From IMG/VR virus record IMGVR_UViG_3300030116_003824, positions 1 to 22,834 of that record: a stretch of DNA of 22,834 bases; one strand, given 5' to 3'. The notes below the pieces were generated by a model. That model was not told where the DNA came from. It worked only from the letters and a program-made list of their open reading frames with translations, and made no database searches. Positions within the stretch are counted from its first letter, which is position 1. Each line of letters starts with the position of its first letter. The DNA comes from a virus. A program made the translations under genes and the position numbers. Below, one piece after another: positions 5,648-20,134 of this stretch.

Positions 5648-6664
5648 ATGCTACTTTCTTTTCCCCGCGAGATTGGTCTACGACGTAGTATTTGTTCTTC
5701 CTTAGATAGATTTTCGTCATATGTAGATACAGTCAACGGTAAAGCGAACTGCTATACATCTTTGTTTTCTTTCAAGGAGCGTGACCCCAAAAGACCTTGG
5801 AAACCAGACTACGATAGTGTAGTCATAGACCGCGCTTGGTGGGATTTCGATATGGGCGAGCGCGGTGGTATCGATGATGTCAAGCGCGATGTAGCAACGC
5901 TGATAAATCGCTTAGAAGGTGATGTAAGATTAGTCGCTACTGGTCGTGGATTCCACGTACACCAACTATTCAAAGACCCTGTTATTGGAGGCTCTTGGGA
6001 CCGTAAATTGAATCGATATGAGCGAAGCAAAGCGCATGACCTAAAGACATTAGATGGTGTAGGTTTCGCTAAGAAGATGACTAGGATTCCAGACACCTAT
6101 AATGTTAGTAGAGGTAGATGGGCAGTCAATATAGATGCGCGTGGTTTTGCAGAATCACCTATGGATTTTGTCATACCGACAAGACCAGTGGATGATTACA
6201 CCCACTTGGACCCGTTTCGCGGTGATGATTTATCTGCTACGTTCTCGATTACAAAATGGGCTATCGATAATCCAGAAACAGAACAATGGGTATCTAGCGG
6301 AACTTTTTCAGGAGAAGTAGGTACACATAGCACTGTACCCATTCCTCCCTGCCTAGATAGAGCAATACAGGTTAGCAACCCTAGTCATGAGATTCGTGTA
6401 GCCTTAGTACTACATATGGCCGAAAACCTACGTTGGTTCGCGCCAGCGTCTAGTGTACCGGCAGACAAAATGAAATCTATGGAGGATGAAATATTGACCT
6501 ACATAGAAACTCTAAACTGGAGAGACTTCAATCCTAGTGTAAGTCGAGGTCACATCAGAACTTTGTTGACTTACGATAGGTCGCCTTCTGCTGGTTGGTA
6601 CGCTGCTCGCGGTCTTTGTGATGGTCACGATTGTTGGGCGCATAATCTAAGAAGAGTTAATTAA
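5648..6664 (+). CDS. Archaeo-eukaryotic primase: PriS-like catalytic domain fused to a PriL-CTD-like Fe-S domain
   Basis: The protein has 338 residues and should make the primers for PolB. The N-terminal part carries the three AEP motifs: WWDFDMG (metal ligands D66, D68), ATGRGFHVHQ (H103), and TRIPDTYN (R146, nucleotide binding). The C-terminal part starts with PIPPCLDRA (C235), like the PPC entry to the PriL C-terminal domain. It continues as a helical block and closes with GLCDGHDCWAH (C324, C329). PriL has four cysteine ligands; here only three are obvious in this domain. Cellular archaea use two separate subunits, so this looks like both functions in one short chain, as in some plasmid and virus primases. 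It starts 3 bases after the previous stop. Confidence 0.8.
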   Translation: MLLSFPREIGLRRSICSSLDRFSSYVDTVNGKANCYTSLFSFKERDPKRPWKPDYDSVVIDRAWWDFDMGERGGIDDVKRDVATLINRLEGDVRLVATGRGFHVHQLFKDPVIGGSWDRKLNRYERSKAHDLKTLDGVGFAKKMTRIPDTYNVSRGRWAVNIDARGFAESPMDFVIPTRPVDDYTHLDPFRGDDLSATFSITKWAIDNPETEQWVSSGTFSGEVGTHSTVPIPPCLDRAIQVSNPSHEIRVALVLHMAENLRWFAPASSVPADKMKSMEDEILTYIETLNWRDFNPSVSRGHIRTLLTYDRSPSAGWYAARGLCDGHDCWAHNLRRVN

Positions 6665-6690: not shown

Positions 6691-7410
6691 ATGATTCTCA
6701 TAGATGACCGTGAGAACGAGAAGTTAATCCACAAGATGCTGATAAGGGGCGGAAATGCGAACCAATCTAGCGACGGAATATCCAAGGTTGCTAGATTAGA
6801 TTCTGCTGATTATATCATAGGAGATATAGGCATAGAAGCCAAAGAAATAAACGACTTGTACAGGTCTATCTTGGGTATAGGAAGAACTAGAACTATCGTA
6901 TCTCAACTTCGTGATTTAGAAGAGACATTTGAGAATCCTATGCTGGTAGTTTATGGTACTAAATTGAAGCCTTGGGTTCCGGGCGGTAGACCTTCGGCGC
7001 AACTGGTGGCGAAAGAAATGGCTAAGATGCGCTCAGTGATAAAAGCATTCAAGATTTCGTTCTATTCTCGATTCCCCAACATAAAATTCATGGAGTTGCT
7101 TACTATGGACGACTTTGTAGATTTTATCATGACCATGCACACTAATCATCTAATCAGCAACAGATTAGGAAAAGTACCAGAGGAAGTTAGGATTAGTCAA
7201 ACATCTGATTTGGACCCGCGAGTAAAGGTACTCTCTTCGATACAAGGTATAACCCCACACATGGCTCAAGAACTTCTTCGTAAGTTCGGGACTATACCTA
7301 AGATACTCAACAAGAGAACATCACAGAAATCTATCATGGAAGTAAAAGGTATAGGTAGAGAAAAAGCAAAGAGAATCCTATCACTGAGAGAGCCTATTCA
7401 AACGGAGTGA
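6691..7410 (+). CDS. XPF/ERCC4-type structure-specific endonuclease with tandem helix-hairpin-helix
   Basis: The protein has 239 residues, matching the short helicase-less XPF form of Crenarchaeota. The nuclease domain has ILIDDREN near the N-terminus, then ADYIIG (D40) and IEAKEINDL (E49, K51, D55), equivalent to the family motif GDx(n)ERKx(3)D. The usual arginine of ERK is alanine here (A50). Residues about 178-235 hold two helix-hairpin-helix units (IQGITPHMAQELL and VKGIGREKAKRIL) that grip branched DNA. Family members cut 3' flaps and fork structures and are usually stimulated by PCNA. Here it would process replication or recombination intermediates. I see no clear C-terminal PIP box. 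Its last 17 bases overlap the opposing tail gene. Confidence 0.85.
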   Translation: MILIDDRENEKLIHKMLIRGGNANQSSDGISKVARLDSADYIIGDIGIEAKEINDLYRSILGIGRTRTIVSQLRDLEETFENPMLVVYGTKLKPWVPGGRPSAQLVAKEMAKMRSVIKAFKISFYSRFPNIKFMELLTMDDFVDFIMTMHTNHLISNRLGKVPEEVRISQTSDLDPRVKVLSSIQGITPHMAQELLRKFGTIPKILNKRTSQKSIMEVKGIGREKAKRILSLREPIQTE

Positions 7411-10400
7411 ATTGACTTCCTAGACTTGGCGCGAAGAAGGCTGCTCGCTTGAAAGCAACACCTACGTTGTGTATTATGATTGAGTTGTTGTCTGCCGTAT
7501 CACTACCGGCATCGGGAGAACGACTTACTGTTACTTTTATTTTGTTGCCGTATATACCAGCACCGTCCAACAAAGCGGTTGGTAGTAACTCTATTGTTGA
7601 GTTATCACTACCAACTGGCACTGTTACACTGTTAGTTATGGATGCGTTTGTATCTATGCACAACGCAGTAACGGTCAAAATCGCTACGTTCCCACCTACA
7701 CCAGTAGCACCTGAACAAGTTATCTTGCCTGTTATATTGATTTCGTTGTTGAGAACGTCTATGGGTACAGTAGCAGTCCCCTCAATAGATGAGGTTTTAT
7801 CTCCTGTATTATCAGAGTGACCAACGCCCGGCAATACCATACCGCTATCTGTTTTGGTAGCGTTACCGGAGGCTGGCATGATATTACTATTGAATCCTTC
7901 TACCTCTCTCATAGCACCGGGCTTCGGTCCTTGTCTCTTCTGACCTAAAATGTTGAAAGAAGATTGATGACTAAAATTATCTGAATCGAGATTCATTCTA
8001 CCTTTCATGTTACCATATGCACCTGCTGTTAGATTGTTAGTACCGCTACCAGACGGTAGACCTGCACCACCACCATCTTTCCACCCACCTGCGGGCGTAG
8101 GTTTAGTTCCTCCAGTCGGTAGATAGGCAGATGGGTTTGCGGGTCCACTAGGCAACGGACCGAAACCGTTAGGCATACCAGAGACATTTGTTGAGCCGGA
8201 ACTACCTGCGAGCGGATTAGGTGGGCCGCCGCCAGTAGTGCCAGTTCTAGGGTTGATGGTGTTGCTGGCTATGTAAGAGACTATGTTATCAGCACCTCTC
8301 GATTCATCTCTTTCAAGAGTTAAAGTAACATCGCTAGTATCTCTACCGCTTATACTCCAATTGACACTTTGTATAGTTAGCACCTCGCTAGATAGATTCA
8401 AACCTTGGTCTGTGTAGGTTGCGAATGTTCCGGGGATAAATCTCATATCATTGACTATGTGAAGTCTAGGAGCATACCATTCACTTCTGCCGTAAGCAAA
8501 ATCACCGAACTCACTGTATCTTCTACCACCTAGAGGAAAAATACTGTTGTCGTTACCACCAGTAATTACGCTAGTAGCGAATCCTGTTATACCGTGTGCA
8601 TTTTTCAGTATATCTGCGTGTGTAGGGTCACCACATCTATGTCTTAGAAGTGCGCGACAATATTCAGCGTTGAAAGAAACTACTATCTTAGCCCCTGCGC
8701 CCGCTAGAGTTGAAGAATAAGAAGTTGGTATAGACATCTCATAGAAACCACTATTTTTGACATTCAAAGAAGATATACGACCACTTCCACCAGATGCAGT
8801 CAAAGATGCAACAGTAGAAGAAGTATAGCCATTAGTAGTTGCGCTGTTAGAGAAAGTATAGTCTTGCATGAGTAAAACAAATTCAGCATTGTCTATATCT
8901 GTTCCGCTTTGACTAGGTTTTAGACCTACAAACAGCCTCATTTCATTACCTGTTGTCTCACTAATATATGGCATATCCTCCGGCACATGAACTATCTGTA
9001 ATGCGTAGTTTAGACTGTTAGCACCATAGAAATAGTATTGGTCCGTCCATTCTATATCAGATGCGCTAGTAGCGGTGATAGAGGTGTAAGGAGCAGACTG
9101 CCCATAACGATGATACAGGTCTGTGCTAGTCTTGAGGTTCCCATCCATAGCGTTGACCATGCCGGGGAAGGGAGTGAAACCGGCTGCTACGTGCGCCCAA
9201 TCGTAAGCGTAAGTATAGTCTTGATGGTCAAGAACTCTATGGGTGTCTGCGATGTAACCAAACCTGCCTCCTGTCATCATTTTATCTGTTGTGTGTTGAC
9301 TGCTTGTTTGTAGTATTGGAGATGCGGTGATAGAGATTCTGCTGTCCTTTAGTTTTTCAAATGTATGCTTTGCTATTGATTGCGCTTCTCTACTGTTTAT
9401 GATACTAGGATGCTCTACTATTTGCCATCTAGTAGTATCTGAAACAGTTGGTGTAGGGAAGTCTGCAAACGCCTTGCCATTGTTGTAATACACTCTTACA
9501 TTAGTCACTACGGAGGCAGAGTCGGCTTTCATAGTACTGACTATCAGATTACTTCTATCAAACAAATAACCACTATTGTACTTAGGTCGTAATTCTATTC
9601 TTGAATCTCTACCTACTAGATATGAGAATGTTTGTGCTACACCTAGACTTCTACCTACTCCACTACCCTCTTGTGTTCCCTTGACAATCGCAAAAATAGT
9701 CTTAGTCCTAGCATCAAAGACCGAACCAAATGAATCTTGCGATGCTGCCGTAGTAGTGCCGTCTGTGGTCATGATTGTAGTGTTAGGTACATTTGCTATA
9801 TCGTGCATGGTAGTAATTCTAGTACGTGGCAGCCAAGTCTTCATCAAACCAGCGTTGAACAACATTCTCATCTTGTCACTCTCAAAGTAAGTCCCTATGT
9901 TTGGTGATTCTACAAACCCTGTGACTCTCATCATGAGCCTAGTCATATGTTGTGTAGATACAGAATTTAGCACAGTTATAGAGTCATATTGATTATCTGC
10001 TGTGCCAACGACCATACTAGGGAAGTGTATCTTTGGACTGCCACCGAAGGCCATTTTATCTGCTACCAAAGCGGATTCTATGGTGGAAGGTGTAGATGCA
10101 CTACCGATAGATTGTGTAGATAGAGTAGAGCCGAAAACATTGATGAGTTGTGGAGGTATAATGTACCCATCACTACTAGCGGCGGTAAATCCAGTGATGT
10201 TATCAAAAGTACCATATAGTCCAGTCGCCATACCAGCAACAGTTACCACATACAATTGTGTTGTGCCAGCAACAGTAACTATTATTCCTAAAGCATTACT
10301 TTGTGTTGTATTAATAATAAAGGGGCGATGACCAGCATCTACAATTTTTTTAAGTTCCGTGAAATCGGCAGAAGAATCAGTTATTATAGAAATGTTTGTT

Positions 10401-13400
10401 GTATTAGATACGCTTGTTGCACTTCCAGTAAAGTTTGTTTGATTTGTAGCATCCCAACTAATGTAGCCAGTTGTTTGAGTCTGATTCTGACCGCTTCCTT
10501 TTCTTGCTATGACCCTACCTAAACCAGCAGTAGGGAACTCATCTCCGGCAGCCAAACGTATATGTCTATCATTTTGTAAAATACTACTATCTGCTGTACT
10601 AGCATCAGAAGTAAGTCTAAATTGATTGGGGTGTTGACTATAAGGAGGTGCTACTGTTTTGTATGTAGCCATAGCCTCTGACCAGTAGTTATCTATTAAA
10701 ACAGGAAACCCTTCACCAGTAGCAATATAATCCCCAAGGTCGGTTCTACCTCCAGCACTTTGCCCACTTTTACCGTTATTGACTATTGTATTTAGATTGA
10801 AGAACTTAGCACTATCTATGACCAAGAAAGCACCTGCTTTGTCTTCCCAATCATGATATTGAGTAAGTGCTTCTTCCTCGCTTCCTGTCGTCTTAACGAA
10901 GAAAGCACCACCAGTACCCATAGAATCTGCTTGCTGGAAAGTAGCAGCACCCAATGTTATTTTAGTAGAAGATACGCCAGCGACCTCGTAAAGTTTGTCA
11001 TGATACAGACTGTTAAGGACATAGATATAGTCATTCGCCACAACACCATGACCAGAACCTACTGTCAATTCTAAAGCACCACTAGAATCCCCAATGCTTG
11101 TAACAGCAGTAGTTGTAGAAAAATCTAACGGTTTAGAAAAAGCACCTTGAGTAGAGGGGTCGTTTGTAGCATCTACTTCCCATAAATCTACATCTGAACC
11201 TAGTTTCAAATCTGTAAAAGAATCCGGGTTGCCGTTTTCATCAGTTTGGTCTACGAAAAACAACTCTACGTTATAATTATCAACCGTAGGTTCTATAATA
11301 CCGAATTCTCTTTTTCTTGTGCTACCATCAGCATCGGCTCTACCATCATTTCTCATATCCGACCAAAGAAGCCAACAATGTTTGTAACTGTCGCTAGTAG
11401 AAACCACATTGATAACCGCACCACTTAGATGTGTTTGACTGATGAAAGAGCAACCAACAAGATAATAATTACCACCGGTTGTAAGTTTCTTTCTCCATAT
11501 GAAAGTATCGACAGTGCCATCTGTATTGGTGATTTGAGCCAAACCAGCGTTTTGTGATATTTGCCCATAAGAAGTAGCATCTATCTGTACAGTCGTAGCG
11601 TTAGGCGTTACATTTGCTTGTATTGTACCAGTGGCATCAGCAGTATTTTGTATAATACCAAAGTGATACTTGAACCAAAGAGAGTTTGCTAAATCTCTCA
11701 TCCAAGTAGAATGTATAGCCCTAGTTGTTATTGCAGTTCCGGTTATTGGTGTTATCTGTCCAAAATCTCTACATATAACACCTTTATTATCACCAGTTAA
11801 ACCGCCTGTTCTTGTAAAAGTACCATATTCAGCACCGCTACTTCCATATTGTTTTGTTACAGTAACGACAAATAAAGTAGACGGACTTCCATCTAAGCCT
11901 TGAAAAGCGGTAAAGGTCGTAGTGCCTTCGGGGGCTATTGCTTGGTAAAGTGCAGGTAAAGCATATGTGTTTTCCATACTTTTGACACTAGCAACCTTTA
12001 GTGGTTGGTTGCTTATTTGTGAATAGTTAGTTGTGCTACTACCGCTAGTAAAATGACCATTAGACGCTGGCGGAACAAAGAAAATGTCACCTGCTTTTAA
12101 TCCGGGGTCTGCATCAAAAATAAAGTTATAGTTACCATTTACTGTACTATTAAAATCAGTAGCAGATGTAGTCAAAGTCATCCTATTTCCCGTCGGGCAA
12201 AATTTACCAGCATATACAAATTCTACACCAGATAAAGGAGTAAATGCTAAATCGCTAGTAGCGAAATCAAGAACTTGTCTAGTATCTCCTTCGGGACTTG
12301 TATATGTAGATACTGCACTAGGACTTTTACTTGTACAGTTGTGGGAAGCACTTCTTATTATATCTACTGTACTGCTGGTTGTATAGATGCTTGCATCCTC
12401 AAGAAAAACCTTAGTTGTTGTGGTAGCACCAACGGATGCCGGTGTACTTATACTAAAACCTACGACACCAAGACCTTCATATTGTTCTTGGAGATTATTT
12501 GGGCCAAAAGATACATCTTCGTTGTTATACATCTGTATAGGATGAGCAGAATAAATTTGTGTTCTTTGGTCGTTTCTTACTAAATAACTATCATCTTTAT
12601 CTAAACCTACCGTAGAGTTAAATGTTCTAAGTGCGGTTGCGCCCATGTAAAATGCACTGTTAAAATCAACAGACTCTTTATTCCAGTAAGCAGTAGAACT
12701 TTCTGTTGTGTTTTCCCCTAGTTGTCCCAAATCCCACAAAGGAACCTGTCTATCCATTACAGATAATGCGTCCTTCGCGGTCAAACTTAGAGTTCTACTT
12801 CTCTCTGTTTGATTGACAGTCATTCCTTGAAACGGTCCTCTCCATATGGGTCTATCTATGCCTTTGTAGAAAAACAATAAATTCCAATCTGCAACAGTGC
12901 CGGTAAAAATATTAGACAAGAAATGACTATAATCTTGGGTACGAAAACCTATTTGTCCGTTTGATGTATTCATCGCAGCATCATCAGCAATATCTATTTT
13001 GAGGGTAGAAGTACCATTGACAGGATTATTCATCTTCATGTTTGTTATAGGCGGCAAAACAGTACCATCTGCTCTTTCAGTCATACATTGATACAAACCT
13101 ACTCTATCTATCATAAGAGTGTAATGATTATCGTTAGCAGCATTAGTCCCTTCTTCTACAATAATTTGCCAGCCTTTCATGGCACTAGGTAAAAACGCCG
13201 CGCCAGTATCTCCGTTGTTGTTCATCGCAAAAGGCCCATCAGTACCGCTAGTATTTTTTACAGCAGTACCGTCTTTGTAGACAGTAAATCTATTGTTTGT
13301 GTAGTCTATCTGAAACTCAAGGTCAATCCACAAAGATGCGGGGTTGTATGTAGACCCGTCCCAAGTTGTTATCTGATTATGATAATCATATGTACCGCCT

Positions 13401-14443
13401 AAACCGTTGTTGGCTGCGGTACTAGCACCTAAATCTATTTCCCATTCGATAGCAGCCGTATTTGTATTTTCTGAAAACCCTTTTTCTCCTGTTGGTGTTA
13501 TAGAAGATGGAAAACCTATTTGTATTGTAAGTTTTGGTGAGTTTGCCACATAACTTTGTGCTAAATTACCCATAGACAACGATTGAATGGCAAATCTTAT
13601 TCCAAAGGTATCGTTATCTTGTCTACTGTTTAGCATTCCATCATATGCTATGGCAGGTCTTTTTTCACTATCTACTACTATGTTTGCATTATCTTTGAAA
13701 TAAGTTTGTATGCACAAAAAAGGCATACCGGACGGAGAACGATGTGGCATATAGTGAAGTCTAGGTGTTTCTACCGTATCGCTAGAAGGAGTTGTAAAGT
13801 GGTTAAAATCAAAGTTTCTTTCTGCCATCCAGCAACCTGTTAGATGAGCGCGTTGCATATAAGTTACTCCAAGTGGATTTATTGTGTCTAGTTCCCCTGC
13901 GTTGCTACTGCCACCGCTAAGGCTTGTACCATCATCGTAGTATTGAATAGTATAAGGCTGCCTTTCTTCTCTACCAAAGGTAGAGTCGTAATCACCTGTT
14001 GGTATGTAGTAAGAGCCAGTTGTATCATGACCATTACAAAACAATAAGTAGCCATCACTACCAGCGTTATTGAATCGATATTTGTTTGCTACATGACTGT
14101 CGGGATATTGTAGTTGCGCTCTACCTTCCCACTTTTCCGGGCTTTGTCTGTTGATGTCGTAGGTAAGCCATTCTGCGGGGCTTACGCTTTTTATGTAGCA
14201 GAATGTAGCAGATACTACTTTATCTTGACCTGCTACTTGGTTTCTATCAGGCAAAGCCCAACGGTAACGAGGATTGAGAGTAGCCTCTCCATTCATAGGG
14301 TTGCCGTAGTGAGTTTTATCGCTGTCATAGGCTGCGGTAAGGGTTGGGTCGTTATCGTCGTTAGGAATGGCTCTAGCACCGTTAAAATCGTCATAGTAGC
14401 CAGCCAGCATGAATTGATAATCTAATGTTGTACTTCTTACCAT
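7394..14443 (-). CDS. Giant tail hub/tip protein (2349 aa)
   Basis: It follows the tape measure gene, where siphoviruses encode distal tail, hub and receptor-binding functions. Residues about 360-450 look like a lectin or jelly-roll module. Residues about 520-570 (IWRGPFQGM through LTAKDALSVMD) resemble the first part of a phage tail hub. A second hub-like block around 1630-1740 (VRVYYNNGKAF, REAQSIAKHTFEKL, MMTGGRFGYIAD) resembles the later gp27/gpD-type domains. About 1000 residues of strand-rich, Ser/Thr/Asn/Gly-rich modules lie between, including a GSGHGVVANDYIYV unit. Residues about 2064-2140 form a Gly/Pro-rich linker before a beta-rich C-terminal domain. The start has GGTGA (14448-14452) upstream. 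It probably forms the tail tip and contacts the host surface. Confidence 0.7.
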   Translation of the reverse strand: MVRSTTLDYQFMLAGYYDDFNGARAIPNDDNDPTLTAAYDSDKTHYGNPMNGEATLNPRYRWALPDRNQVAGQDKVVSATFCYIKSVSPAEWLTYDINRQSPEKWEGRAQLQYPDSHVANKYRFNNAGSDGYLLFCNGHDTTGSYYIPTGDYDSTFGREERQPYTIQYYDDGTSLSGGSSNAGELDTINPLGVTYMQRAHLTGCWMAERNFDFNHFTTPSSDTVETPRLHYMPHRSPSGMPFLCIQTYFKDNANIVVDSEKRPAIAYDGMLNSRQDNDTFGIRFAIQSLSMGNLAQSYVANSPKLTIQIGFPSSITPTGEKGFSENTNTAAIEWEIDLGASTAANNGLGGTYDYHNQITTWDGSTYNPASLWIDLEFQIDYTNNRFTVYKDGTAVKNTSGTDGPFAMNNNGDTGAAFLPSAMKGWQIIVEEGTNAANDNHYTLMIDRVGLYQCMTERADGTVLPPITNMKMNNPVNGTSTLKIDIADDAAMNTSNGQIGFRTQDYSHFLSNIFTGTVADWNLLFFYKGIDRPIWRGPFQGMTVNQTERSRTLSLTAKDALSVMDRQVPLWDLGQLGENTTESSTAYWNKESVDFNSAFYMGATALRTFNSTVGLDKDDSYLVRNDQRTQIYSAHPIQMYNNEDVSFGPNNLQEQYEGLGVVGFSISTPASVGATTTTKVFLEDASIYTTSSTVDIIRSASHNCTSKSPSAVSTYTSPEGDTRQVLDFATSDLAFTPLSGVEFVYAGKFCPTGNRMTLTTSATDFNSTVNGNYNFIFDADPGLKAGDIFFVPPASNGHFTSGSSTTNYSQISNQPLKVASVKSMENTYALPALYQAIAPEGTTTFTAFQGLDGSPSTLFVVTVTKQYGSSGAEYGTFTRTGGLTGDNKGVICRDFGQITPITGTAITTRAIHSTWMRDLANSLWFKYHFGIIQNTADATGTIQANVTPNATTVQIDATSYGQISQNAGLAQITNTDGTVDTFIWRKKLTTGGNYYLVGCSFISQTHLSGAVINVVSTSDSYKHCWLLWSDMRNDGRADADGSTRKREFGIIEPTVDNYNVELFFVDQTDENGNPDSFTDLKLGSDVDLWEVDATNDPSTQGAFSKPLDFSTTTAVTSIGDSSGALELTVGSGHGVVANDYIYVLNSLYHDKLYEVAGVSSTKITLGAATFQQADSMGTGGAFFVKTTGSEEEALTQYHDWEDKAGAFLVIDSAKFFNLNTIVNNGKSGQSAGGRTDLGDYIATGEGFPVLIDNYWSEAMATYKTVAPPYSQHPNQFRLTSDASTADSSILQNDRHIRLAAGDEFPTAGLGRVIARKGSGQNQTQTTGYISWDATNQTNFTGSATSVSNTTNISIITDSSADFTELKKIVDAGHRPFIINTTQSNALGIIVTVAGTTQLYVVTVAGMATGLYGTFDNITGFTAASSDGYIIPPQLINVFGSTLSTQSIGSASTPSTIESALVADKMAFGGSPKIHFPSMVVGTADNQYDSITVLNSVSTQHMTRLMMRVTGFVESPNIGTYFESDKMRMLFNAGLMKTWLPRTRITTMHDIANVPNTTIMTTDGTTTAASQDSFGSVFDARTKTIFAIVKGTQEGSGVGRSLGVAQTFSYLVGRDSRIELRPKYNSGYLFDRSNLIVSTMKADSASVVTNVRVYYNNGKAFADFPTPTVSDTTRWQIVEHPSIINSREAQSIAKHTFEKLKDSRISITASPILQTSSQHTTDKMMTGGRFGYIADTHRVLDHQDYTYAYDWAHVAAGFTPFPGMVNAMDGNLKTSTDLYHRYGQSAPYTSITATSASDIEWTDQYYFYGANSLNYALQIVHVPEDMPYISETTGNEMRLFVGLKPSQSGTDIDNAEFVLLMQDYTFSNSATTNGYTSSTVASLTASGGSGRISSLNVKNSGFYEMSIPTSYSSTLAGAGAKIVVSFNAEYCRALLRHRCGDPTHADILKNAHGITGFATSVITGGNDNSIFPLGGRRYSEFGDFAYGRSEWYAPRLHIVNDMRFIPGTFATYTDQGLNLSSEVLTIQSVNWSISGRDTSDVTLTLERDESRGADNIVSYIASNTINPRTGTTGGGPPNPLAGSSGSTNVSGMPNGFGPLPSGPANPSAYLPTGGTKPTPAGGWKDGGGAGLPSGSGTNNLTAGAYGNMKGRMNLDSDNFSHQSSFNILGQKRQGPKPGAMREVEGFNSNIMPASGNATKTDSGMVLPGVGHSDNTGDKTSSIEGTATVPIDVLNNEINITGKITCSGATGVGGNVAILTVTALCIDTNASITNSVTVPVGSDNSTIELLPTALLDGAGIYGNKIKVTVSRSPDAGSDTADNNSIIIHNVGVAFKRAAFFAPSLGSQFTPFE

Positions 14444-14459
14444 GCCTTCACCACTTCAC

Positions 14460-17400
14460 TTACGCTGGACTTACGTTTATACCGTTAGTTACCGCTCTCT
14501 CGTTTATCTTTCTCAAAATTTCATCTGCTACTTGGTCGGTAGTCATACCGTTGAAATTGTTAGTCATAATTATCTCAGTATTCGCTACAAAGTTTTCAAC
14601 GCCCTTCTGCTCTATCTGCTTTACCAAATCACCAGTGACGTTACCAGCCTTGAAACCAAAGAACAACTCTTCTCTAGCGTTGTTAAATTCATCAAACAAT
14701 TGTATGGAGTTCTCTATTTCTGTATTGAGTCCATCTAAACTTCCTTCTGAGCCATTAAGTGTATCTTGTAAATTTTGTAATTCTCTGTCGTTTTGAGCAA
14801 GTGCTTCGGCAAATTCCTCTATGTTATCAATACCTTCGCTTTCAATAAAGTTAGCAAAATCTTCATTGGTTTCTAGTAAATCATTTATCTGCTGAGTCAA
14901 TACTGCCGCTTCACCTGCTGCTTCCCCCATCGCACCAGTTGAACCCAACACTATTCTATTTAGTGCAAAACCGGCTGAGTCCATAAAACCTTCACCGCCT
15001 ATCATCGCGAATCTACCTGTTTCTTCATTAAACTTACCATATGTGCCTGTAATATCATCTAATTGTGATTGTAAATCAAACAACTCTTCTGCTGCCGCAT
15101 TAAAACCTAATGCGTCTGCTGTTTCGCTTCCTACAACACCAATTAGTCTTTCATTTAAAGAAATCAAATCCAACAGTTGTTGTTTTCTGTCTTCATACTG
15201 CTGCCCTTCTAAACCAGAAATTCTATCTATTTCATTTTCATATTCTACTATTTCATTAGCCAATTGTGTTATTGATTTAGTATTATCTTCAAAAGCATCT
15301 GCTGTTTCTTGTAGACTAGCAGTTCCGGTTTCAGCAAATTGCTCTGCGTCACCAAAGAAGCCAAGGTGTTCCATAGCCTTTGACAAAAGTGTACCCACAG
15401 CAATAAAGGCTATTAATGGGCCAACCGCTCTAATTAAACCATTTTTAAATTTAGCAACCGCACCATCCGCAGCCGTAGCCCCTATCACTATACTATTTAG
15501 AGAAATTCTATATGCGTTATTTGCTGCTGTTGCTTGTCCAGTTGCTACTGCGATTCTTTTTCTAAGAGCCTCCGAAATTGTCTCCATGCTTATACCTATA
15601 CCCATTTGCCTAGATAGTTTCGCCATACTAACTATCTGTGGTATCATAGCGGTATTCATCAACACCATAGCGATTCGCATTCTGTTTTGCCTTTTTTCTG
15701 CATCATCTGTTGCACCCGAAAACATCATCATAGCAGAGCCAGCAGCCATCATGGACATAGCAAGTTGTTGTCCAGCAACAGCCTCTTTACCATATGCAAG
15801 ACCTCTTTTTTCTATTTCTTTATCGTCTTCCAATTGTGATTGAGTCGCTAGTCTTTGTCTTTCTGCTTCTGCGTTTGCTATAATATGACCTATTTCCGCA
15901 GCAGTTTCTCTATTTCTTTCTCTTAAAGCGTTTAGTTGTAAAGTTATTAACTCTAATCTATCGCTATCATCTGCTTTTAATCGTTCCAAACTCATTTCAT
16001 GTTCTAACATTTCTTGATGTTGTTCGCGCAAAATTCTTAACTGTTGTTCGGCTAGTTGTAAATCTTTCATAGATGAATCTTGGAGAGTAGTTGCATCTCT
16101 AATAAGTTGTTTAGTAACTTTTGTTCTTTTATCTCCAGCCATCGCTACGTCTAATTCTGCTGTCGCCTCGTCAACGGCTATTGCAGCCTGTTCTGCTGCT
16201 TCTTGTGTTATTTGTTGCTCTATATCATTCTCTCTAAGCAAAAGGGAAAGTCTAGCAAGTTGTTCCTTAGTTTTTTGCCTTTCAAATTGCATCATATCTT
16301 GTTCATTTTCTAGTCTTCTTTGTTCTGATACTTGTCGTGCCAAATCAGTTTTCATTTGATTTAATTGTTCATCAGTTACAGTTCTTTCCATCATCGCTCT
16401 AGTTTCTGTGTCTATCAACAAATCTCTTGCTATCATACTGGCAAGTGCTGATTTTTGGTTTTGTTCCTCTAATTCTGTGTTTATTAGATTATTAAATCTT
16501 TGACGACCTCTTAATTTACTAGACATAAAATCTTCTCTAATCATTTCTTCTCCCCGTAAAGAAGCAGTAAGAACTTTTTGTGTCGCAAGAGCCACGTTCA
16601 TTTGAACAATATTAACGAAATTTTGAAAAAAACCAGAAGCAGTATCTTGAACTACTTTAGAAACACCGAATAAGTTGTTTAAGAAATCACCGCCTCTACC
16701 AGCAAACACAGAAGTTAGTTGTTTGTTGTATTCTGCTTGTACTTGGGTAGCCATAATAACAGAAGGCGTAAGTGCATCACCGAGAGTACCTTTGTATTTA
16801 TCTAATTCTGCTTCCGCTTCTCTAAGAACAGTAACTTGATTTTGTAACCTAATATTTACTTCATCCATAGCCGGGCTAAGACCTAAAGTAGATTGTATCA
16901 TTAACTCCTGTGTTCTTTCGTTGTTCTCCATCAATTTTAAGAAACGCGCATAATGATGAGTACCGGCTACTGCAATAGCAAGATTTGTTTTTTGTTCACC
17001 GTTTAAGTTTTGATATGCTGGAGCAAGTTCATTTACTATTTGTGTCAATGCTCTCATATCACCGTTTGAATCTCTTGTAGCAACTCCTAACTTTTCTATT
17101 TCAGTAGCAGCCCCGCTTGTATCAGCACCCAACCTAGCATAGATTTGTTTTAGCGCACGACCAGCCTTTCCTTGTTCTTCACCAGCCTCAATCAAAGTAG
17201 CAGATTGAGCAGCCATACCTGCTATGCTTTCATTTGCCAAATCTGCCTGTGACGCAAACTGATTCATAACGAAAGTCATATGTTGCATTGTTGCTGCGCT
17301 TCTGTTTTCAATTGTGTTTAGTTGGTCAAGAGTCGCTATGCTGTTTTCTCTAACAATGTTGGCTTGTTCTTCTGCATCCATAGCGCGGAATTGTTCTAAT

Positions 17401-17954
17401 GTATTTTCTCCCAACATAAAGTTAGTTTGTTGTTGTAAGTTGATTAGTTTGGTCATGGCCTCTTCTGTTCCCATGCCACCAATCAAACCAAATTCCATAC
17501 CTACTTGTGTAGCAGTAGGTATAACATCGGGACCGACAACAGAAGACAACTGCGCCATACGTGCTGCGGCCATCAATGCTTGGTCGGCTGTAAATCCAAA
17601 ACCTTGACCTATCTCAACTACTTCACGGGCTATTTTGTCTGCATCGTCAGCAGACTCTACGAACTTTTCAAACTCAATACGCGCATCTGCAATTCTGTTA
17701 GCAATAGGTATTACATCATCAGTTAGAGCAGCCATCTTTGCGCCAAACATTGAAGCAGCATCTTCAATACCAGACAACCCATCAAGAGCAAGTGAATTTA
17801 GAGTTGCGAACTGCGCCCTAGCATCTTTTAGCATTCTGTTACCGTAAAATACACCGATAACATCGAAGAAAACACGGGATGCACCAGCACGATTAACAAG
17901 CATGGTTGCAGCGAATACTACTGCTATTATCCATGAGGGGAAAAGTTCAATCAT
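14460..17954 (-). CDS. Tail tape measure protein
   Basis: The protein has 1164 residues. It sets tail length and is threaded through the tube during assembly. It has an N-terminal hydrophobic stretch (WIIAVVFAATMLV), then an alpha-helical block typical of the TP901-like tape measure core (MAAARMAQLSSVVGP, EFGLIGGMGTEEAMTKL, residues about 120-200). A long charged coiled coil spans about 490-720, followed by hydrophobic segments near 730 (MSMMAAGSAMMMF) and 850 (GPLIAFIAVGTLL). The order after the tube and chaperone genes is the standard one. At roughly 1.5 angstrom per residue the tail would be near 175 nm; this is an estimate. The start overlaps the chaperone stop as ATGA. Confidence 0.9.
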   Translation of the reverse strand: MIELFPSWIIAVVFAATMLVNRAGASRVFFDVIGVFYGNRMLKDARAQFATLNSLALDGLSGIEDAASMFGAKMAALTDDVIPIANRIADARIEFEKFVESADDADKIAREVVEIGQGFGFTADQALMAAARMAQLSSVVGPDVIPTATQVGMEFGLIGGMGTEEAMTKLINLQQQTNFMLGENTLEQFRAMDAEEQANIVRENSIATLDQLNTIENRSAATMQHMTFVMNQFASQADLANESIAGMAAQSATLIEAGEEQGKAGRALKQIYARLGADTSGAATEIEKLGVATRDSNGDMRALTQIVNELAPAYQNLNGEQKTNLAIAVAGTHHYARFLKLMENNERTQELMIQSTLGLSPAMDEVNIRLQNQVTVLREAEAELDKYKGTLGDALTPSVIMATQVQAEYNKQLTSVFAGRGGDFLNNLFGVSKVVQDTASGFFQNFVNIVQMNVALATQKVLTASLRGEEMIREDFMSSKLRGRQRFNNLINTELEEQNQKSALASMIARDLLIDTETRAMMERTVTDEQLNQMKTDLARQVSEQRRLENEQDMMQFERQKTKEQLARLSLLLRENDIEQQITQEAAEQAAIAVDEATAELDVAMAGDKRTKVTKQLIRDATTLQDSSMKDLQLAEQQLRILREQHQEMLEHEMSLERLKADDSDRLELITLQLNALRERNRETAAEIGHIIANAEAERQRLATQSQLEDDKEIEKRGLAYGKEAVAGQQLAMSMMAAGSAMMMFSGATDDAEKRQNRMRIAMVLMNTAMIPQIVSMAKLSRQMGIGISMETISEALRKRIAVATGQATAANNAYRISLNSIVIGATAADGAVAKFKNGLIRAVGPLIAFIAVGTLLSKAMEHLGFFGDAEQFAETGTASLQETADAFEDNTKSITQLANEIVEYENEIDRISGLEGQQYEDRKQQLLDLISLNERLIGVVGSETADALGFNAAAEELFDLQSQLDDITGTYGKFNEETGRFAMIGGEGFMDSAGFALNRIVLGSTGAMGEAAGEAAVLTQQINDLLETNEDFANFIESEGIDNIEEFAEALAQNDRELQNLQDTLNGSEGSLDGLNTEIENSIQLFDEFNNAREELFFGFKAGNVTGDLVKQIEQKGVENFVANTEIIMTNNFNGMTTDQVADEILRKINERAVTNGINVSPA

Positions 17955-18229
17955 TCACTATCCCCACTTTCATTACTGCCCACAATCGGAACATTCGCAT
18001 CTCTCAACGCTTGGAACAGGTCTTTATTGTTGTTTAAGAGTTCGCGTTTTTGGTTGCGCCTAGCAACCATAGATTTACCATCACGCTTGGCATCTTTTGT
18101 TGCTTCACCTATACGGTCATTTATTTCATTTGCTACTACTAAATCAAGTTCAAGTAGTTGCTGCCCTCCCGCGCAGTCATACCTTTCCCACAAATCGGAA
18201 GGTAAAACGCCTTTGAAAGCCATACACAA
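17951..18229 (-). CDS. Tail assembly chaperone, downstream (T) frame, probably made as a -1 frameshift fusion
   Basis: This frame can encode 92 residues from a TTG at 18229, or 90 from ATG 18223, but neither start has an SD. The frame is open upstream without a stop into the preceding chaperone gene and lies at -1 relative to it. A slip at CCCTTTG (18256-18262) would join 113 residues of the upstream frame to 101 of this one, giving about 214 aa. The junction would then read GQFFRVAAPLCMAFKGV, a helical stretch like the start of T regions in phage G-GT proteins. The rest is basic and helical. The fusion would help load tube subunits onto the tape measure, encoded immediately downstream. The stop overlaps the tape measure start. 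Confidence 0.8.
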   Translation of the reverse strand: MCMAFKGVLPSDLWERYDCAGGQQLLELDLVVANEINDRIGEATKDAKRDGKSMVARRNQKRELLNNNKDLFQALRDANVPIVGSNESGDSE

Positions 18230-18274
18230 AGGCGCGGCTACTCGGAAGAATTGCCCAAAGGGACTGCACCCTCC
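18208..18274 (-). promoter_or_regulatory. Programmed -1 ribosomal frameshift cassette
   Basis: On the minus strand the zero frame reads GTC CCT TTG GGC, containing the perfect X_XXY_YYZ heptamer C_CCT_TTG (18262 to 18256). GGAGGG (18274 to 18269), an SD-like stimulator, ends 6 bases before the heptamer. An inverted repeat CGCCTTTG/CAAAGGCG (18234-18227 with 18215-18208) makes an 8-bp stem with an 11-base loop, beginning 21 bases after the heptamer; that spacer is longer than the usual 5-9. The -1 frame then stays open to 17951. Confidence 0.75.
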
Positions 18275-18594
18275 GGGTCATCTCCACGAACAAATGCTAG
18301 TAATGTTCTCAATTCTTCGCTAGTCAATGTATCTACATCAATATCGTCATCAAGAATACAATCTGGAATCCAATCAGCCATCTGTGTAGATACGCCTCCA
18401 CCGGCTTCATCAAGAGCATTTACAAACTCTTCGTTTTGCTCATCTGTCCATTCAGTAGGGTCGCCATAATGCTTAAACTTACGAAACACCTTTGCTTGGA
18501 TGTTTTCTATTCGTAGTTTCTGCATACCGGATGCTTGTCGCACCCAAATCTTGCGTCCGTCGTTCAATTCAATTTTCTTTTTTAGTACCGGCAT
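18238..18594 (-). CDS. Tail assembly chaperone, upstream (G) frame
   Basis: The protein has 118 residues, starting MPVLKKKIELNDGRKIWVRQ. It has a short basic N-terminal beta part, then an acidic helical body (DEQNEEFVNALDEAG, TSEELRTLLAFVRGDD). Size, acidity and position between the tail tube and the tape measure genes match the short product of G/GT chaperone pairs of long-tailed phages. It normally terminates at 18238. A -1 slip at codons 112-113 would extend it into the next frame. Its ATG lies inside the preceding 35-aa ORF (26-base overlap), with only a weak AGTGAAG upstream, so coupled translation is likely. Confidence 0.75.
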   Translation of the reverse strand: MPVLKKKIELNDGRKIWVRQASGMQKLRIENIQAKVFRKFKHYGDPTEWTDEQNEEFVNALDEAGGGVSTQMADWIPDCILDDDIDVDTLTSEELRTLLAFVRGDDPEGAVPLGNSSE

Positions 18595-19105: not shown

Positions 19106-20134
19106 TCAAGCATCATACTGTGTGCCTGATAATTGAGTTCCCGATGCTACTACTTGCATAGCACCAAGGTTATCATCATACAAACCTACAAAGTTCACGG
19201 TCATTGTGTTAGTATCACGACCACTTACTGATGCTTCGGGTGCTTCAAATCTTACCTTGAAGAAATCAAAGTCAATAAAATCTGCTCCCGCTTCATCAAG
19301 TAATTTTAGTTTCATTGATGGAGAAGAACCATCGTTGTATTCAAGACCGTCTGCGGCAATCAAGTTATCGTAAGTAGGCTCATCAAGAGAACTTGTATAA
19401 ACTACTTTGTTAAACTCGATTGTTCCGCTAATTTCTCTGCGCTGTGCTGGAGGTGCGCGACCATAAGTGCTATTACCAATACCATATGCGTTATCTGTAT
19501 CACGATTTAGGTTAATATCAAAACTAAATGATTTAACAGATGCTACTGCTGCTGGTGCGCTGCCGGTTCCATCATCGAACCTAACTTGTCCGTTAGCGAA
19601 GTATAGTGCGTCAAGAGCAACACCGTCGAATGTAGGGGTAGCAAGACTGGAGGTTGCCGATTCTGCCTTTCCAACGAAGCCAACACTCATTGTAGCGTAT
19701 TCTCCAACCGAAGCACTAATGCTTAATGTGTTAGTCATCATACCAGTAAAGGTGTGTTCTTTTTCTTCGCGTCCAACACGAATAGTAAATGACGGATAAA
19801 CGCCAGCAGATGCACTGGTAAGAGAAGGCTCTGTTAGTGTATGAATGTTAGCCGAACCCGATGTTGTTTTTGTGTCTTGAGGGAAGAAAGAGTAAAGTAA
19901 GTTGCCTACAAAGTCATCAACCTGTATAGCGAGGTTGATGTCGCCTTCTGAAAACTCGGTTCCAGTAACGGACTTTGAACTGATAGGTCGGCTCATATCC
20001 ATACGGGTCATAAGTTCATAGTTATGACGAATACTTTCATCATCAACTTCTCCGTAGACAGGAGTTCCGCTAGGTTCAGACCCGTAAGATGATTCTTTCT
20101 CTAGTGAGACATAACGATTTAAGAATTCGACCAT
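19106..20134 (-). CDS. Major tail tube protein
   Basis: The protein has 342 residues, starting MVEFLNRYVSLEKESSYGSE, the typical opening of the Phage_tube_2-type tail tube family found in archaeal and bacterial siphoviruses. The body is almost all beta strand (for example FTIRVGREEKEHTFTGM, SISASVGEYATMSVGFVG) and ends with a strand-rich SGRDTNTMTVNF segment. Hexameric rings of this protein stack into the tail tube around the tape measure. GAGGTG precedes the start within a 61-base gap after the terminator gene. Being the only large beta-rich protein between terminator and chaperones, it is the best tube candidate. No sheath gene accompanies it. Confidence 0.85.
   Translation of the reverse strand: MVEFLNRYVSLEKESSYGSEPSGTPVYGEVDDESIRHNYELMTRMDMSRPISSKSVTGTEFSEGDINLAIQVDDFVGNLLYSFFPQDTKTTSGSANIHTLTEPSLTSASAGVYPSFTIRVGREEKEHTFTGMMTNTLSISASVGEYATMSVGFVGKAESATSSLATPTFDGVALDALYFANGQVRFDDGTGSAPAAVASVKSFSFDINLNRDTDNAYGIGNSTYGRAPPAQRREISGTIEFNKVVYTSSLDEPTYDNLIAADGLEYNDGSSPSMKLKLLDEAGADFIDFDFFKVRFEAPEASVSGRDTNTMTVNFVGLYDDNLGAMQVVASGTQLSGTQYDA

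Follow-up and report, generated by a model that had tools for sequence, protein, structure and literature searches.

A conserved CCCTTTG site and a probable programmed -1 frameshift in the tail assembly chaperone locus of a probably archaeal virus

The window, a stretch of 22,834 nucleotides (nt) comprising positions 1 to 22,834 of the IMG/VR virus record IMGVR_UViG_3300030116_003824, contains two overlapping reading frames on the minus strand, here termed G and T. They were originally predicted, from the sequence alone, to be joined by a programmed -1 ribosomal frameshift into a tail assembly chaperone resembling gpG and gpGT of phage lambda, with a Shine-Dalgarno (SD)-like motif and a downstream hairpin as stimulators, in a probable archaeal virus. 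Here we present a description of this locus, together with a comparison of its relatives and an assessment of the putative frameshift. The coordinates of the features are collected in Table 1.

The heptamer CCCTTTG lies in the zero frame of G (C CCT TTG) and its letters were confirmed; the SD-like GGAGGG and the hairpin (stem CGCCTTTG/CAAAGGCG) are likewise present where the original prediction had placed them. The predicted position of the locus between the tail tube and tape measure genes was upheld, with two to three small open reading frames (ORFs) separating the tube gene from G, which does not immediately adjoin it. In the -1 frame no stop occurs between 18277 and the TGA at 17953-17951. 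Because the nearest upstream -1 stop is at 18280, the shift is confined to positions 18277-18241. Candidate starts of T in the -1 frame are TTG 18229, ATG 18223 and TTG 18193, and, as had been noted, none of them is preceded by an SD sequence.

Table 1. Features of the G/T locus and its neighbors in the window
Feature	Position	Strand	Basis
G-like ORF, zero frame, 118 amino acids (aa), predicted short form of the tail assembly chaperone	18238..18594	-	ORF, homologues and AlphaFold model
Slippery heptamer C CCT TTG, candidate -1 shift site	18256..18262	-	zero frame of the G ORF; kept in relatives
T-like part, -1 frame, 101 aa past the shift plus stop, putatively made only as a 214-aa G-T fusion	17951..18256	-	open -1 frame; kept in relatives
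Stretch in which the shift must fall, from the first open -1 codon to the zero-frame stop TAG (18240-18238)	18238..18277	-	
SD-like GGAGGG inside Pro-Glu-Gly codons, 6 nt from the heptamer, not conserved as SD	18269..18274	-	
Perfect 8-bp hairpin, 21 nt past the heptamer, not conserved	18208..18234	-	
ATG in the -1 frame, codon 12 of T, rival independent start	18221..18223	-	
Tape measure protein, ATG overlapping the T stop (ATGA)	14460..17954	-	PhageMin_Tail, 1.6e-14
Tail tube protein	19106..20134	-	Phage_tube_2, 6e-22

Regarding the frequency of such sites by chance, 20 of the 7110 zero-frame heptads in 17 ORFs of the window have the form XXXYYYZ, and one would fall within the 12-codon shift window with a probability of about 0.03. 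A single sequence alone would therefore not settle the question of a frameshift. A second, overlapping zero-frame heptamer (TTTGGGC, 18259-18253) was dropped because it is present in few relatives, and AAAAAAG at 18583, also in the zero frame of G, was discounted as a shift site because many -1 stops come after it. It had been argued that heptamer, SD-like motif and hairpin are together unlikely by chance. As judged from the aligned relatives, on which the significance rests, this is very strongly the case for the heptamer, whereas the hairpin pairs at chance level and the SD-like motif is without synonymous constraint.

Relatives were collected from IMG/VR with search patterns that never covered the slippery codons; those of the second scan were taken from the N-terminal half of G. 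The first two scans yielded 58 and then 80 loci (the best 80 of 188), with contigs partly common to both. The 137 matching sequences (136 loci and the window) were reduced to 134 usable ones by dropping two loci with a cut zero-frame end (L055 and L056) and one that is a stretch of the window itself (L059); the 134 include repeat copies of contigs and correspond to 95 distinct regions. After removal of L001, which differs from the window by 3 mismatches in 641 bases, the 94 regions were grouped into 68 clusters at 90% nucleotide identity. A divergent member was the starting point of a third scan (the best 80 of 193), which added 21 new distinct regions that served as a later check set; one locus (L321) was cut and most of the others were repeats. 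The most distant relatives fall outside the best 80 of 188 and the best 80 of 193.

At the homologous zero-frame site, CCCTTTN is present in 83 of the 95 distinct regions (58 CCCTTTG, 17 CCCTTTT and 8 CCCTTTA), and all 21 further regions have CCCTTTG. The -1 frame is open across the site in 95/95 and 21/21 regions, respectively. The alignment of homologous loci, proposed along with the original prediction as a way of checking it, thus found both the heptamer and the open frame conserved. Homologues combining the loss of the slippery site with an independently started second gene were also sought. The 12 regions without XXXYYY (ACCTTTT in 6, GCCTTTT in 3, and TCCTTTT, GCATTTT and ACATTTT in 1 each) keep TTTT and belong to a single sub-clade with the A-site (aminoacyl-tRNA site) codon TTT. 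A false insertion or deletion introduced by sequencing or assembly could produce two adjacent frames from one gene. This explanation is refuted by the relatives, as 95 distinct regions, drawn from many metagenome contigs, have the two-frame layout, with the zero-frame stop 0-5 codons past the slippery site in the 68 clusters; the probability of such an error is practically negligible.

The slippery Pro codon (synonymous identity 1.000 observed, 0.309 expected) and the slippery Leu codon (0.868 observed, 0.289 expected) rank first and second among 115 codon columns in synonymous identity over the 68 clusters. With columns 112-122 left out of the tree, the third base of the Pro codon underwent 0 changes, compared with a median of 19 over the 115 columns; the only other columns with 0 third-base changes are the start codon and one invariant Trp. 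Regarding the 45 Leu-type clusters, CCT is used in all of them (background 33%) and is preceded in all of them by C, irrespective of the residue encoded (V, I, P, L, T or C; xxC background 8-38%). The Leu codon is TTG in 41 and TTA in 4 of these clusters and never CTN (TTR background 47%). As -1 translation begins past CCCTTT, these six bases code in the zero frame only; the G of TTG doubles as a coding base, namely the first base of the T codon GGN. No explanation at the amino-acid level is known to us for the constraint on CCCTTT. Slippage, as far as the alignments indicate, accounts for it.

The T frame shows a coding signal upstream of its ATG. T codons 8-11 precede Met12 (ATG 18223) and, in all 68 clusters, come after the zero-frame stop. 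They underwent 25/13/89 changes at codon positions 1/2/3, a pattern like that of codons 13-26 (76/57/284). By this criterion the -1 frame appears to be translated before ATG 18223. The alternative is that T is an ordinary gene, started at ATG 18223 (or TTG 18229) by internal initiation or by re-initiation after the zero-frame TAG, with no frameshift. Such a start would suit the 14 nt between the zero-frame stop codon and the ATG, the presence of Met12 in 48/68 clusters, and an 85-aa BFVD entry that resembles T alone, as though called from about codon 12. It would not suit the remaining clusters, in which the residue is Ser (19) or Gln (1), nor the 21 further members, in which Met12 is found in none and Ser in all. 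Before the conserved FKG of T, an ATG is present in 55 of the 68 clusters, only GTG or TTG in 6, and none of these in 7; before T codon 12 of the 21 further members, the corresponding numbers are 2, 10 and 9. A T start preceded by an SD sequence was found in only 1 of the 68 clusters in a simple motif test. In addition, the predicted T model has a confident helix at residues 3-13, which runs across Met12, and an independent start leaves unexplained both the constraint on CCCTTT and the coding pattern of the codons upstream of the ATG. We therefore consider this alternative highly improbable. Independent initiation cannot serve as the general route to T, and an extra product from the ATG may be made in some viruses. 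In annotation, T is best given as a continuation of G instead of a gene beginning at the ATG.

Regarding stimulatory signals, the proposal that GGAGGG and the hairpin enhance the shift is unlikely to hold, even though both exist in the window. The spacer between the SD-like motif and the heptamer, described originally as that of dnaX-type signals, is 6 nt, whereas the distances reported in section 36 of a review (PMC5009743) are 9-14 nt in the case of -1 shifts and 3 nt in that of +1 shifts. Within 20 nt upstream of the site, the 68 clusters have GGAGG (23), GAGG (16), AAGG (21) or GATGG (8), i.e., one of the first three in 60 clusters. The same span of the 21 further members has GGAGG in 12, GAGG in 4, AAGG in 4 and GATGG in 1, and some sub-groups keep GGAGG often. 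The choice between GAG and GAA in the Glu codon of the motif shows no synonymous excess (-0.05) in the 68 clusters, and that of the Gly and Ala codons is weak (0.19 and 0.20). Because the Glu codon is free whereas Glu-Gly is conserved, the SD-like motif can follow from the protein sequence. One relative (L261) has no SD-like motif at the homologous place, its GAGG being located 16 nt from the site.

The hairpin begins 21 nt past the heptamer, compared with the 5-9 nt given for the stem-loop of dnaX-type shifts in a passage of PMC8211752. Its pairs are retained across the relatives at the level of column shuffles (mean 3.71 of 8 versus 3.77). Mean folding z scores past the site (-0.65 and -0.67 in two runs) are no stronger than those elsewhere in T (-0.36 to -0.74). 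With RNAalifold, a 22-member group gave a structure of -9.1 kcal/mol, and the 24-member group that includes the window gave none. Very stable predicted RNA folds (z < -4) are present just past the site in three relatives (L039, L040 and L045); the z score of their relative L048 is 0.08. The site thus appears, from these comparisons, to work without a conserved SD sequence or hairpin, and a mild SD effect may exist in the window or in some sub-groups. As SD stimulation is unsupported, the further claim that an archaeal host would imply SD-stimulated frameshifting by archaeal ribosomes does not follow.

The sites of the Phe type differ from those of the Leu type. In the 23 Phe-type clusters the A-site codon is TTT throughout, the preceding codon is CCT in 21 and CAT in 2, and the base before it is C in just 14, compared with 45/45 where the A-site codon is TTG or TTA. 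The first base changed between C and non-C about six times on the tree, with the non-C states confined to the Phe clade, and Leu changed to Phe once. The frameshift could accordingly be real and yet proceed by slippage of a single tRNA at U UUU in this sub-clade (perhaps dominated by the A site elsewhere), and not by tandem slippage in all members. Because tRNA-Phe re-pairs perfectly on UUU within UUUU, the first tRNA may matter less there. We regard single-tRNA slippage as possible, at less than even odds: with only one Leu-to-Phe change the association belongs to one clade, the background of TTT is already 74%, and the window itself, being of the Leu type, is not concerned. A lower dependence on the first tRNA in the Phe clade is thus suggestive and limited to one clade. 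The most degenerate sites of the family are found in L012:5001-5348 and L114:733-1080, where His replaces the slippery Pro (GCATTTT and ACATTTT, respectively) and the run of four T remains.

A broader picture, which we put forward tentatively and consider rather unlikely, is that of a large marine virus clade, probably archaeal, in which the chaperone frameshift takes place at the slippery site alone, neither SD sequence nor RNA structure being conserved, and in which tandem slippage has decayed to single-tRNA slippage on UUUU where the A-site codon is TTT (cf. the repeated loss of the first C only there). If true, the clade would amount to a naturally occurring mutational scan of how archaeal ribosomes slip into the -1 frame.

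The alignments used for structure prediction comprised 65 of the 68 clusters for G and 48 of 65 complete ones for T. The AlphaFold model of G has a predicted local distance difference test score (pLDDT) of 92.8. When it was compared with the PDB using Foldseek, the top two matches were chains of 2ob9, the HK97 tail assembly chaperone (probability 0.84 and 0.60, with weak E values of 0.14 and 0.18). Among the 50 BFVD matches listed, 10 were named tail assembly chaperones (E 0.05-0.74), and one unnamed protein was 55% identical to G (E 9e-14). The sole BFVD match of the T model below E 5 was one unnamed protein of 85 aa. A PHROGs scan of 65 G relatives resulted in one that reached a chaperone PHROG (E 0.04). 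No match to G was found by tblastn in 50,697 phage records, nor were relatives of G found in genome contigs. The gene position is stronger evidence for a chaperone function than the fold match.

The locus would best be explained by a programmed -1 frameshift that yields G and G-T tail chaperones, a reading to which we assign a probability of roughly 0.9. It is supported by the conserved heptamer, the constraint that the slipping bases show at synonymous positions, the open -1 frame with its coding signal upstream of the ATG, the gene position and the weak fold match to the HK97 chaperone. Several observations weigh against it. XXXYYYZ is missing in 12 of the 95 regions, and an ATG is present at T codon 12 in 48 of the 68 clusters. 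The G protein of the window has no family match in Pfam or PHROGs. Its Foldseek match is weak (E 0.14), and VIA-align placed 2ob9 at rank 4 (Z 4.7 over 82 residues, root-mean-square deviation 4.1), tied with unrelated chains.

As we infer the process, most ribosomes would read the ORF 18594-18238 and stop at the TAG at 18240, giving the 118-aa G form. In a minority, with CCU in the P site (peptidyl-tRNA site) and UUG in the A site, the ribosome would slip back by one base at C CCU UUG, whereby the two tRNAs would re-pair in tandem with CCC and UUU. These ribosomes would go on in the -1 frame to 17951 and produce the 214-aa G-T fusion. By analogy with lambda gpG and gpGT, G would serve to coat the tape measure protein and T to bring in the subunits of the tail tube, the two forms being made in a set ratio. 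The predicted joining of two lambda-like chaperone frames is accordingly retained on the grounds of conservation, constraint, coding signal and position, and the stimulation by the SD-like motif and the hairpin is not.

The window and its relatives represent a family of tailed viruses that are marine and uncultured. The host is probably archaeal, as originally suggested, but this is unproven. A contig of 60,885 bases, whose G protein is 100% identical to that of the window, encodes an RFC-like clamp loader. Its best PDB matches (1e-25) are chains named RFCS or replication factor C small subunit, which we take to be archaeal. This clamp loader is not decisive for the host, because it is also a good match to the T4-like ones of bacterial phages (Rhizobium phage, E 2e-24). 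Among phage records, the tube protein matched 4, which belong to two viruses of methanogens and one Thermus phage. Regarding PolB, which is encoded in the window, the lowest E value among the 20 phage records listed belonged to the halovirus HRTV-11, and cyanophages dominate the 627 matches. The best 80 of 230 PolB relatives in genome contigs are 20-27% identical and of mixed archaeal and bacterial origin, the lowest E value belonging to an Archaeoglobales metagenome-assembled genome; no record with Poseidoniales in its title was among these 80. Counting against an archaeal host, TFB, primase S and Rad51 were found in 0 of 15 long relatives, and the terminase matches listed are mostly cyanophages and other bacterial phages. 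MCM gave a weak match in 2 of the 15. No match was found for the portal, nor in PDB searches with the putative clamp and the ORF 5648-6664.

In the window, replication genes on the plus strand and tail genes on the minus strand converge. Magroviruses (order Magrovirales) are described as having PolB, a clamp loader and opposed clusters of replication and morphogenesis genes, and the Aoguangviridae map includes the label of a tail assembly chaperone (PMC10768690, PMC12999244). The group of the window resembles them in PolB, clamp loader and opposed clusters, as far as can be judged from published description only. The opposed clusters fit magroviruses, although such features are not unique to the order. 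The genome size given for Magrovirales, 90-110 kb, counts against this assignment, the 15 long relatives examined here being 60-74 kb in size.

A close relative encodes an 842-aa protein (L244 11390-13918) with a stretch of 116 residues that is 63.6% identical to Actinomycetia phage DSL-LC01, far above the other matches listed; it looks like a transferred domain. The same relative carries an ArdC-like anti-restriction protein with a metallopeptidase domain (L245 15215-16252; Pfam ArdcN and MPTase-PolyVal). In the window, two lysine-rich ORFs were noted, one of 35 aa (18676-18569, minus strand; MSRRYTEPVSEEKPKKASKKK...) that overlaps the start of G in a different frame and one of 64 aa at 19096-18902. 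An ORF of 2349 aa (7394-14443, minus strand) is located directly downstream of the tape measure gene and is convergent with an ORF for an ERCC4-type nuclease, with an overlap of 17 bases.

A conserved tail-gene frameshift was reportedly described by Xu, Hendrix and Duda in 2004. The slippery site of lambda gpG/gpGT is GGGAAAG, in contrast to CCCTTTG here, which is accompanied by no conserved stimulator. Passages of the review PMC5009743 describe frameshifting in chaperone genes as widely conserved in tailed phages and set out the role of lambda gpG/gpGT. With E. coli dnaX, as treated in section 36 of the same review, the site shares -1 slippage at a heptamer, but it has neither the SD spacing nor a conserved stem-loop.

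The nearest known cases are haloarchaeal tailed viruses. According to passages of PMC5009743 and PMC8211752, a -1 shift in the chaperone gene was proposed for HCTV-1, -2 and -5 and HVTV-1, and a +1 shift for HSTV-2. The sites are given as GGGAAAC, AAAAAAC and GGGAAAG for HCTV-1, -2 and -5, respectively (PMC5009743, in part), and as GGGAAAT for Hardycor1 (in an excerpt of PMC7911831); a +1 shift was proposed for the HF1 group (in an excerpt of PMC7230728). The gene and the (here probably) archaeal ribosomes are in common and, except for HSTV-2, so is the -1 direction; those cases are proposals in the passages cited, and their sites differ from CCCTTTG/A/T, which is conserved over the whole virus family here. 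Another archaeal -1 shift at a slippery heptamer, that of Saccharolobus solfataricus fucA1, belongs to a cellular enzyme gene and was tested experimentally; strain 98/2 shares it, whereas other Sulfolobales genes are full length (PMC8211752, in part).

CCCTTTG is not outside the known kind of sites, because in the PRFect data each of the four bases occurs at X, at Y and at Z of annotated phage sites of the XXXYYYZ type (as excerpted from PMC10885494). CCCUUUG/T was also proposed for West Nile virus (in a passage of PMC3574045). The main text of a magrovirus survey (PMC10160649) mentions neither frameshift nor chaperone, and no prior report of a frameshift site in this virus group was found in open-licence PMC text. 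Frameshifting in tail chaperone genes is thus already known, including the proposals for haloarchaeal viruses; the present locus adds a member to this known kind, notable for its slip sequence, its apparent lack of conserved helper signals and the strong comparative evidence. If the host is archaeal, the family offers a case with family-wide evidence from more than 100 distinct natural versions of one gene (95 + 21), in which simple reporters can be used to ask whether a heptamer by itself suffices for a shift by archaeal ribosomes and what the trade-off is between re-pairing in the P site and in the A site.

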